From Verrucomicrobiia bacterium (GTDB lineage Bacteria > Verrucomicrobiota > Verrucomicrobiia > Verrucomicrobiales > Akkermansiaceae): a stretch of DNA of 45,925 nt. Below the pieces are notes generated by a model. It was not told the origin of the DNA, ran no database searches, and saw only the letters and a program-made list of their open reading frames with translations. Below are positions 9,659-27,000 of the stretch, piece by piece (the first letter of the stretch is position 1; each line of letters starts with the position of its first letter). Both the position numbers and the translations under genes were made by a program. The stretch covers positions 1 to 45,925 of the forward strand of contig JAUIJD010000036.1 in assembly GCA_030431475.1 (NCBI GenBank), written 5' to 3'.

Positions 9659-9662
<4 letters not shown>

Positions 9663-11302
9663 AGGTCGGGATTGCCCAGATCAATGCGGTGGTCGGGGAC
9701 TTCCCCGGCAACGCGAAGCGCCTGCTGCAGGCCTACCGGGAGTGTCTTGAGAAGGGCGCCGAGCTGGTGGTATCGCCGGAGATGGGCCTGGTCGGGTATC
9801 CGCCGCGGGACCTGGTGTTCAAGAGCCAGTTCGTGCCGAAGTGCCTGCAGGCGCTCGACTACCTGGCGAGCGAGATCCGCGAGGTGCCCTTCCTGGTCGG
9901 CTACGTCGATCACCACGAGTCCGACCAGCCGGGCAAACCCTTCCGCAACGGGGCGGCCTGGCTGGAGAACGGCGAGGTGCGGGCGAGGCGATGGAAAACG
10001 CTGCTGCCGACCTATGACGTCTTCGATGAGCGCCGCTACTTCGAGCCGTCGGAGCGGTGCGAACCCATCGAGTGGAACGGCCGGAAGTTCGGGGTCACCA
10101 TTTGCGAGGACATCTGGACCGACGACTACCTCGACCGGCCCTTTTACCGCCGCGATCCGGTGCGTGAGCTGAAAGCGGCCGGAGCGGACCTCATCCTGAA
10201 CCTCTCGGCCTCGCCCTTTCATCTCGGGAAACCGGAGCAGCGGGAGGAAATGCTGGCGTCGGTGGCGCGGGAGGCGGGACTGCCGTTGGTCTACTGCAAC
10301 GCGATCGGCGCCCAGGATCAGTTGGTGTTCGACGGCCATTCTCTGGTCGTGGGAGGGGATGGGGAGGTGCTCGCGAGGCTCGGTGGGTTCGAAGAGTCCT
10401 GCGAGGTGTGGAATCTGCGGCAGGATGCCGCAGCCACCGCCTGCGGCAGGATGCCGCAGCCACCCTGCGAGCAGCTGTGGCGGGCGCTGGTGCTGGGGTT
10501 GCGGGACTACGTGACCAAGACCGGCTTCGAGACGGTGTGCCTGGGCTTGAGTGGCGGGATCGACTCGGCGCTGACGGCGGCGGTCGCGGCGGAGGCACTG
10601 GGCCCCGACAAGGTTCACGGCCTGACCATGCCGAGCCCCTACTCGTCCGGTGGTAGCGTCAGCGATTCCTTCGCGCTGGCGGAGACCCTCGGGATCCGCT
10701 GCGACGAGGTGCGGATCTCGGAGATCTTCGAGGAGGTGAAGTCGACGATGGCGCCCTTGTTCGTGGGTGAGGACGAGGACGTCACCGAGGAGAACATGCA
10801 GGCGCGGATCCGCGGGCTGCTGCTCATGTCGCTCTCCAACAAGTTCAACCACCTGCTGCTCACGACCGGCAACAAGAGCGAGTTGGCGGTCGGCTATTGC
10901 ACGATCTACGGCGACATGTGCGGCGGGCTGGCCGTGATTTCCGATCTTCCCAAGACGCGTGTCTACGACGTTTGCCGTTGGTTGAACCGCGAGCGGGAGA
11001 TCATCCCCTGGAATACCATCGACAAGCCGCCGAGTGCCGAATTGCGGCCGGACCAGAAGGACCAGGACAGCCTGCCGGAGTATGACGTGCTCGACGGGAT
11101 CCTGGAGGCCTACGTCGAGAAGCATCTCTCGACCGACGAAATCGTGGGCCTTGGCTACGAGGAGGACCTGGTGCGGTGGGTGCAGCGTCGGGTGGATCTC
11201 AACGAATGGAAACGCCAGCAGGCGGCCCCGGGCATCCGGGTCACCTCCAAGGCCTTCGGCATGGGGCGGCGGATGCCGATCGTGCAGCGCTTCACGGGTT
11301 GA
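9659..11302 (+). CDS. nadE: Glutamine-dependent NAD+ synthetase
   Basis: 547 residues. It converts deamido-NAD+ to NAD+ with ATP, using ammonia released from glutamine. The N-terminal nitrilase-type glutaminase domain (about 1-250) carries the Glu-Lys-Cys triad: E41 (SPEMGLVGYPPRD), K113 (RRWKTLLPTYDVFDERR) and C149 (GVTICEDIW). The C-terminal synthetase domain has the P-loop of N-type ATP pyrophosphatases, SGGIDS at 298-303, and the later TGNKSELAVGY. The linker between the domains (about residues 253-269) is encoded by two copies of a hairpin-forming 24-nt repeat read in different frames, so the linker sequence is probably the product of a repeat insertion. The start overlaps the glnS stop by four bases; both enzymes use glutamine, though the functional meaning of that coupling is not established. 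Confidence 0.94.
10415..10464 (+). repeat. Tandem 24-nt hairpin repeat inside nadE
   Basis: Two identical 24-nt copies (10415-10438 and 10441-10464) sit 26 nt apart. Each contains the perfect palindrome GCGGCA-GGA-TGCCGC followed by AGCCACC. Because the offset is not a multiple of three, the copies are translated in different frames (LRQDAAAT then CGRMPQPP). The reading frame of nadE is kept overall. Confidence 0.85.
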
Positions 11303-18706: not shown

Positions 18707-18746
18707 TTGAGGCGGTGGCTGCTTCCCGCCACCCTTGAGGGCACGC

Positions 18747-26949: not shown

Positions 26950-26993
26950 GGCGGCGGGCCGCCGCCAGCACGGCCTGCCCCGGGCCGGGGCAG
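26950..26993. repeat. Double GC hairpin between convergent genes
   Basis: Two consecutive stem-loops lie between the HupE/UreJ stop and the nagZ stop: GGCGGC-GGGCC-GCCGCC (26950-26966) and CTGCCCCG-GGC-CGGGGCAG (26975-26993, perfect 8-bp stem). There is no T-run on the plus strand, so this is not a standard intrinsic terminator, but it may block readthrough from both sides. The second hairpin runs on into CAGCCACC (26991-26998), the same sequence that ends both hairpin copies in nadE. Confidence 0.65.
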
Positions 26994-27000
26994 CCACCGT

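Follow-up and report, generated by a model that had tools for sequence, protein, structure and literature searches.

An in-frame REP doublet in nadE of a Verrucomicrobiia bacterium, and RAYT reading frames nested in housekeeping genes

INTRODUCTION

REPs are short imperfect palindromes in many dispersed, mainly extragenic copies, with a GTAG or GTGG tetranucleotide 0-2 nt 5' of the hairpin, and RAYTs are genes flanked by the same REP that encode an HUH motif and a catalytic tyrosine in a Y1 transposase fold. Both are present in many bacteria. In Opitutus terrae, REPs with a GTGG foot (GTAG-20) form dimers and have copies inside genes, including both uvrA genes (PMC3733652); GTGG variants of the REP tag are also described in two papers (PMC3733652, PMC6006769). 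REPs in frame inside tnpAREP genes are described for RAYT subclass 2.4 in PMC6006769, which also discusses the persistence of RAYTs as an open question. Rickettsia palindromic elements (RPEs) lie in frame in many protein genes and carry the tag CGTC, with no linked transposase, according to PMC3733652.

Here we analyze a 45,925-nt stretch (the window) from a Verrucomicrobiia bacterium (GCA_030431475.1, contig JAUIJD010000036.1, positions 1 to 45,925 of the forward strand). A prediction made from its letters alone had proposed that a pair of hairpins was inserted into nadE without breaking the frame and that it belonged to a dispersed REP-like family with variable stems. We find that the nadE element is a further example of an in-frame intragenic REP, and that RAYT frames related to it lie nested in frame in housekeeping genes.

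RESULTS

A tagged hairpin doublet lies between the two domains of NadE

The gene nadE (9659..11302, + strand) encodes glutamine-dependent NAD+ synthetase in 547 codons plus a stop, as judged from its translation, Pfam, and NCBIfam, and is the host of the element. Pfam places CN_hydrolase (PF00795) at residues 2-246 and NAD_synthase (PF02540) at residues 274-522, and NCBIfam NF010588 scores 700.9 bits against a cut-off of 479. The closest solved structures are 4f4h and 5kha, and nadE was the single match in the source genome (G000). The element, a 49-nt REP doublet (10416..10464, + strand), occupies residues 253-269 in frame, which agrees with the position predicted for it, the linker that joins the glutaminase domain to the synthetase domain. 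Sequence and model alignment define hairpin A (10416..10432, + strand) and hairpin B (10442..10458, + strand), each 17 nt long with a 7-bp stem and the 3-nt loop GGA. They are joined by the 9-nt linker GCCACCGCC (10433..10441, + strand; family form close to GGGACGGCC) and followed by the tail GCCACC (10459..10464, + strand), whose opposite strand reads GGTGGC and places a GTGG foot on the 5' side of the hairpin, the arrangement known from GTRG-tagged REPs.

The two 24-nt copies described in the original prediction are exact (10415-10438 and 10441-10464), but the palindrome spans only 17 of the 24 nt. Because their offset of 26 nt is 2 modulo 3, the copies are read in different frames, giving the peptides RQDAAAT and then GRMPQPP; the statement that this is not a duplicated peptide is therefore correct. 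GCCACC after hairpin A is read in phase 0, and the tail of hairpin B in phase 2. The pattern GCAGGATGCCGCAGCCAC, allowing up to three mismatches, had two matches in the window, compared with a shuffle mean of 0.11 and no shuffle out of 100 with two. A second doublet (26950..26998, + strand), with different stems and the same plan, lies after an ORF called HupE in the original prediction. The tail common to nadE and positions 26991-26998 was confirmed, and what is common extends to the whole 49-nt plan, bearing in mind that the model described below was built partly from both window copies. The window has two further GCAGCCACC 9-mers, at 18714 and 35316, neither of them with a doublet.

The doublet is the normal form of a dispersed family

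The family plan consists of hairpin A (17 nt), a 9-nt linker, hairpin B (17 nt), and a tail. We aligned 18 copies from the source genome (alignment A1), comprising 15 of the 16 found by a fixed-spacing pattern and 3 with other stems. Across the 14 base pairs of A1, 98.4% of cells were paired, 8 pairs had changed on both sides, and 0 of 500 shuffles scored as high. A search of G000 at E 0.001 with a covariance model built from A1 (R1) gave at least 46 matches. Among the 18 genomes of the genus, R1 matched in 10, the source genome included, and in none of the other 8, with at least 37 matches in G009, at least 33 in G017, and at least 15, 12, 11, 9, 8, 4, and 1 in the others; these counts are lower bounds, as 150 candidates were scored per genome. 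The nadE doublet scored 72.5 bits over the full length of the model (1-49) and the second doublet of the window 53.5 bits, both being copies from the training set.

In a collection of 47 R1 matches from the source genome, 17 of them training rows, the doublet measured 49 nt in 43 cases, 50 nt in 2, and 58 nt in 2. Because the unit of the family is itself a doublet, the nadE pair represents the usual arrangement rather than a local duplication. The tail was GCCAC in 38 matches, GCTAC in 5, and something else in 4; on the other strand it reads GTGG or GTAG, one base from hairpin B. Hairpin A has no such foot in most copies, and GCCAC is present in the 9-nt linker of only 3 of the 43 copies of 49 nt. 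Stem cells paired in 97.4% of cases, with a covariation score of 0.460 versus 0.105 for shuffles, in an alignment that was fitted to the model and hence leans towards the R1 structure. Two of the REP criteria, the dispersed imperfect palindrome and the GTAG/GTGG tetranucleotide at the hairpin, are thus met. The occurrence in 10 genomes and the covariation bear out the proposed dispersed family with variable stems, and the dispersed copies and compensating stem changes support the view of a DNA-level element tolerated in frame by nadE. The original prediction would have been refuted by a genome without further copies, and other copies exist.

Recognized genes hold 6 of the 47 doublets in frame (nadE 1, ispG 2, uvrA 2, hrpA 1), and the rest were without a gene-finder assignment. 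Five frames spanning doublets (L262, L005, L016, L008, and L269) looked intragenic by a codon score trained on long ORFs, possibly including antisense frames, but were rejected as intragenic sites: four had no Pfam match, and the match in L262 was far from the doublet.

An assignment of the doublet to BIMEs or REPINs, in which inverted REPs carry a foot at each outer end, was also rejected, as 1 of the 47 doublets carries GT[AG]G in the 6 nt preceding hairpin A; the inverted arrangement does occur between separate doublets around RAYTs. Six-frame openness was dismissed as a sign of coding selection because composition explains it: 12 of 18 doublets were open, compared with 50% of dinucleotide shuffles and 89% of random stems set in the same linker and tail frame. 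The generic pattern GGCNGGANGCC was too loose for copy counting (310 matches versus 299 in the reversed control). A tighter pattern, GGCAGGATGCC, gave 30 matches versus 3, some of them outside doublets. Separately, the two 58-nt doublets (L017:516-573 and L011:2869-2926) contain an extra small hairpin and resemble the nadE form of the relative described next.

The nadE element is shared with one near relative

Among 38 genomes searched, 27 nadE genes of the same type were aligned, and the element is present in two: that of the source genome and that of Verrucomicrobiaceae bacterium E54 (G017), a near relative. The remaining 25 have no doublet; conservation of the linker in distant nadE genes, which would have counted against the prediction, is thus not seen. 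In E54, hairpin A is unchanged, the linker GAGACGGTC is nearer to the family form, and the second part is longer, adding three codons overall. Since E54 shares hairpin A and has the longer variant form found elsewhere in the source genome, the alignment suggests that the element probably predates the split from E54 and was remodelled without loss of frame. A strict search for hairpin plus tag misses the E54 variant, which was recognized from the alignment instead; the same search gave one mismatched hit elsewhere in nadE of G001.

By eye in the alignment, the nadE linker of the source genome exceeds that of the relatives measured by 2 to 5 codons. With so small a gain in length, part of the old linker has probably been replaced by the element, as far as sequence comparison can tell. 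The original description of the element as inserted stands as regards an element in frame, but the insertion itself is inferred.

Perfect REP copies in uvrA and hrpA are read in one codon phase

Two in-frame doublets lie in uvrA (TIGR00630, 1033.8 bits, cut-off 729.8) and one in hrpA (TIGR01967, 919 bits, cut-off 722.75). In-frame REPs were seen at loci L281-L282 (uvrA) and L301-L304 (hrpA), in hrpA at sites common to several species. At one hrpA site, REPs are present in G000, G017, G002, and G001 with three different stems; G002 and G001 have a stem in common and differ in the loop. The 13 other aligned hrpA genes have no REP at that site. A perfect tagged hairpin lies near a second hrpA site in G000, G017, and G002. 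REP sites in hrpA are thus shared while their stems differ.

Genic REPs are read mainly in one codon phase, namely GCC-ACN or, for copies in the opposite orientation, NGT-GGC. This phase was found for all perfect copies in hrpA (7/7) and uvrA (3/3) and for 99 REPs around nested RAYTs (see below), with 17 and 1 in the other two phases. Exceptions are the left sides of the TPR group of RAYTs (5/5) and of L256; in nadE, hairpin A is in the preferred phase and hairpin B is out of it. Five one-mismatch hits in uvrA fell in phases 0, 2, 2, 2, and 1. The loci share ancestry, so the counts are not independent, and the rule was noticed post hoc. Avoidance of stop codons does not explain the preference, as judged from the test of six-frame openness.

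A RAYT flanked by inverted doublets is nested in ispG

The source genome has 19 PF01797 loci. The one at C23 is alone among them in having full doublets on both sides, in inverted order. An IS200-like gene at C107 has a doublet on one side only, C29 has three weak matches (23-25 bits), and one further locus has a 16-bit match; 16 of the 19 had no doublet above 20 bits within flanks of about 1.5 kb, 15 of them without any match. The remaining REP criterion, a RAYT gene flanked by the same REP, is met by the C23 locus and not by most of the 19.

The C23 RAYT lies inside ispG, in a single open frame of 839 codons with GcpE parts around the Y1 domain (L137:83-2602, L151), and both of its ends are inverted REP doublets. 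The 24-nt unit of nadE is identical in every letter to the 3' REP of ispG. G017, G023, and G002, whose genome is a single contig, have a RAYT nested at the same point, and identity over the whole is 70-77%. The comparison took in 30 ispG loci, of which 4 are nested, 25 short at that point, and 1 cut off; seven further genomes with matches gave no locus. In G014, ispG (L157) has a single tagged hairpin where its relatives carry the RAYT, possibly a scar.

The ispG RAYT matches PF01797, which the G002 copy does not reach at E 0.001. Scores with NF047646 (cut-off 80 bits) were 71.5 for the RAYT in ispG, 69.4 in the TPR gene, 76.8 in leuS, 79.3 in valS, 74.6 in alaS, and 84.4 in metH, only the last being above the cut-off. 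The sole solved-structure relative at E 0.001 was 4er8, TnpAREP (E 4.2e-9), which ranked 34 by fold. Across the four genomes, all six pairs indicate purifying selection on the RAYT (pN 0.31-0.38 versus pS 0.65-0.82). Because HMG-CoA reductase was not found, IspH was found, and no second ispG was among the matches listed, we infer that the nested gene is probably the only working ispG, its enzyme activity being inferred as well. An AlphaFold2 model of the E54 IspG-RAYT protein was of moderate quality (mean pLDDT 67.6, pTM 0.46). Both folds were recognized in the predicted structure, and the REP-coded stretches (approximately 303-319 and 542-557) were among those with pLDDT below 50.

A second RAYT of the source genome, at C29 (L139:2-2698), lies in the open frame of a TPR protein. 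The single hairpins on each side of it read VAGASSPVA, and E54 has a relative (L259).

RAYTs are nested in several housekeeping genes of public genomes

Contigs of public genomes were scanned with the RAYT alignment, and the best 80 of 268 relatives were kept. At least 100 codons were open on both sides in 57 of the best 80; among the other 23 were free copies, copies truncated by a contig end, and copies with only one open side. Seventeen ORFs were scanned with Pfam, and the remaining members of each host group, defined by surrounding homology, were assigned by similarity only. The groups comprised 31 loci (IspG in the 4 scanned), 10 loci (class-I aminoacyl-tRNA synthetases in the 3 scanned: LeuRS in L190, ValRS in L246, and one unspecified in L205), 8 loci (MetH in the one scanned, L243), 4 loci (TPR, L230), 2 loci (AlaRS, L260), and singles, which include a GH38-type enzyme, DNA methylases, oxidoreductases, and a helicase.

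The RAYT criterion of HUH motif and catalytic tyrosine in a Y1 fold is met by motifs and, for the relationship to 4er8, by sequence and fold: P[NDEG]H.H is present in 55 of the 57 nested RAYTs and Y[IVLM]..NP in 52. A tagged hairpin of the 17-nt type was found on both sides of 42 of the 57, on the left of 48, on the right of 46, and on at least one side of 52, compared with 18 of 427 control windows of the same loci. Five (L217, L229, L236, L243, and L244) had no tagged hairpin on either side. One of these, L243, is from a cultured type strain (Roseibacillus persicicus KCTC 12988), in which the RAYT is nested in the MetH activation domain.

The 60 codons preceding the LPHW motif lacked an ATG in 34 of 56 nested copies and contained one in 22, 6 of these with a Shine-Dalgarno-like stretch; 8 of 11 free copies had an ATG in the same stretch. 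Two loci without the LPHW motif and loci at contig ends were left out of this count. The pattern fits translation of the RAYT as part of its host without proving it. A splicing (Hint) family was not detected at E 0.001 in the 20 RAYT-bearing ORFs scanned with Pfam, and the RAYT insert probably stays in the host protein.

Other arrangements were seen as well. In a Pontiellaceae bacterium (B1224), a RAYT is fused C-terminally to a TatD DNase (L241:2131-3603), an end fusion. L219, L223, L235, and L249, from several phyla, are RAYT frames without a long host, in which peptides such as GTGVPPV and HGQDGHAT look like translated REPs.

Nested RAYTs group largely by host gene, with apparent exchange in place

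In a tree of 84 RAYTs, 32 of the 34 IspG copies fell into one starred group, the 5 TPR copies all fell into a second, and host labels required 14 changes, compared with a shuffle mean of 45.1. The tree was made by a quick method, and 32 of its 80 inner branches are open. L191 and L192 are IspG copies outside the main group, at different distances to the gene ends.

Host and guest were then compared for 24 copies, with only pairs of host dS below 1.2 listed. L188 and L203 have hosts 97% identical at the amino acid level (dS 0.09) and RAYTs only 44% identical; the corresponding values are 98% and 43% for L188/L218 and 96% and 55% for L209/L212. For the source genome and E54, RAYT dS is 1.50 and host dS 0.55. 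Other pairs fit common descent, with host and RAYT dS of 0.26 and 0.16 (L203/L218) and of 0.56 and 0.46 (L185/L189). L203/L211 shows the opposite pattern, with a host dS of 0.58 and a RAYT dS of 0.09; high identity runs about 300 bases past the RAYT into the host, and judged from these sequences the pair looks more like ordinary recombination.

The L188/L218 alignment breaks at the left tag, with 21 of 24 bases agreeing before it and 8 of 17 after it. Ten pairs were selected for this contrast. In 3 of them at least 17 of the 24 bases leading to the left tag agree; the others are interrupted there by small insertions or differences. At the right edges of the same pairs, none agrees directly past the tag, and identity resumes some tens of bases on. 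On the evidence of these alignments, RAYT cassettes have been swapped in place, either by putative RAYT action or by recombination in the flanks, between which we cannot distinguish. Most of the exchange loci come from metagenome bins, and assembly errors are not excluded for any single one.

DISCUSSION

As a whole, the data are best explained if the nadE element is a non-autonomous REP doublet, a tagged hairpin pair, of a REP/RAYT system, a conclusion in which we have considerable confidence although its transposition is inferred. In the proposed mechanism, a RAYT would bind a single-stranded hairpin, cut at its GTGG foot, and paste REPs elsewhere, binding and cutting both being inferred. REP copies landing in interdomain linkers or loops with the frame kept would survive selection, and the nadE doublet may be one such survivor, older than the split from E54. 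Beyond forming a tolerated linker, the hairpin pair is probably of no use to NadE. Several points count against this reading: transposition was not observed; the link between REP and RAYT rests on few RAYTs of the source genome, with full flanking doublets at a single PF01797 locus; the ispG copy scores below the NF047646 cut-off and the G002 RAYT does not reach E 0.001 with PF01797; the change in nadE is not a clean insertion of 49 nt; and hairpin B lies outside the usual codon phase.

An unlikely alternative is that the nadE doublet is a scar, the right-hand doublet left behind when a REP-RAYT-REP cassette once present in nadE was lost. The doublet is indeed oriented like the right-hand (3') REPs of nested cassettes, and in ispG of G014 one tagged hairpin persists at the position that the RAYT occupies in G000, G017, G002, and G023. 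None of the 27 aligned nadE genes contains a RAYT, however, no NadE is among the hosts named in the best 80 RAYT loci (17 ORFs scanned, the others grouped by similarity), and the solo REPs of uvrA have the left-hand orientation. Selection for the hairpins themselves, acting in nadE mRNA or DNA through translation pausing, mRNA stability, or a gyrase or IHF site, appears quite improbable to us. REPs elsewhere are described as binding gyrase and IHF and as affecting mRNA in PMC6006769 and PMC3733652, and hairpin A of nadE is unchanged in E54, but the linker and second hairpin differ there, 25 of 27 nadE genes do without the element, and the same family occurs in unrelated genes. That slippage in a GC-rich linker or a local tandem duplication produced the pair by chance can hardly be maintained; the nadE linker does vary in length and letters among relatives, but the existence of dispersed copies refutes this origin, and the covariation, which no shuffle equalled, speaks against it too, as does the exact 49-nt length of 43 of 47 matches, with the reservation that the model favors this length and that 15 of the 18 training rows were picked at fixed spacing.

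Returning to the REP/RAYT reading, the in-frame housing of RAYTs suggests a mobile element that lives by translation within host enzymes, with transposition and enzyme activity both inferred. A broader and tentative hypothesis, which we consider somewhat short of probable, is that one RAYT lineage consists of non-splicing in-frame "guest domains" of housekeeping enzymes (IspG, LeuRS, ValRS, AlaRS, MetH, and others) in PVC bacteria and beyond. These guests would be translated with the host, protected from loss by the host gene, and exchanged in place at or near the REP tags like a homing element, and they would be the source of solo REPs, the nadE doublet among them, that settle in other genes and are read there in the preferred codon phase. 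If RAYTs are housed as translated guests in essential genes, their persistence follows, as deletion of the guest risks the host frame, and the question of RAYT persistence becomes testable with one gene. The nested genes are also natural examples of enzymes whose linkers seemingly accommodate an additional domain of about 200 residues. Taken alone, nadE is a modest result, another in-frame REP in a housekeeping gene.

In-frame genic REPs were already known, also in Verrucomicrobia. In-frame RAYT guests appear new, in that open PubMed Central yielded no description of a RAYT lying in frame within a housekeeping gene, a search that left subscription papers, preprints, and supplementary tables outside its scope. 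Inteins and other in-frame homing elements reside in frame in conserved housekeeping genes, have a patchy distribution, and replace alleles at a fixed site. The nested RAYTs resemble inteins in in-frame housekeeping residence, patchiness, and replacement in place, and differ in that the 20 scanned ORFs have no Hint family. Like RPEs, the doublets are palindromes in frame in protein genes; unlike them, they have a GTGG tag and a linked RAYT. Subclass 2.4 likewise has in-frame REPs within a coding gene, but there the REP is inside the RAYT gene, whereas here RAYT and REPs are inside another gene. The motifs [ND]HVH, WQ, and YI[LR][NQ]NP of RAYT subclass 2.7, as given in PMC6006769, are also resembled, which we treat as a lead only.

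With the REPtron and TnpAREP of Escherichia coli (4er8), the system has in common the HUH and Y..NP motifs, inverted flanking REPs, and a GTRG foot; in contrast to that protein, it has no stand-alone gene, and the RAYT frame continues from a housekeeping gene and back into it. The likeness to GTAG-20 of O. terrae, for which no letter comparison was made, includes a short hairpin, a GTGG foot, dimers, and genic copies in a verrucomicrobium. The family described here differs from it in forming a doublet with a 9-nt linker in which usually one hairpin is footed, in its sites in nadE, hrpA, uvrA, and ispG, and in the RAYT itself being nested in frame.
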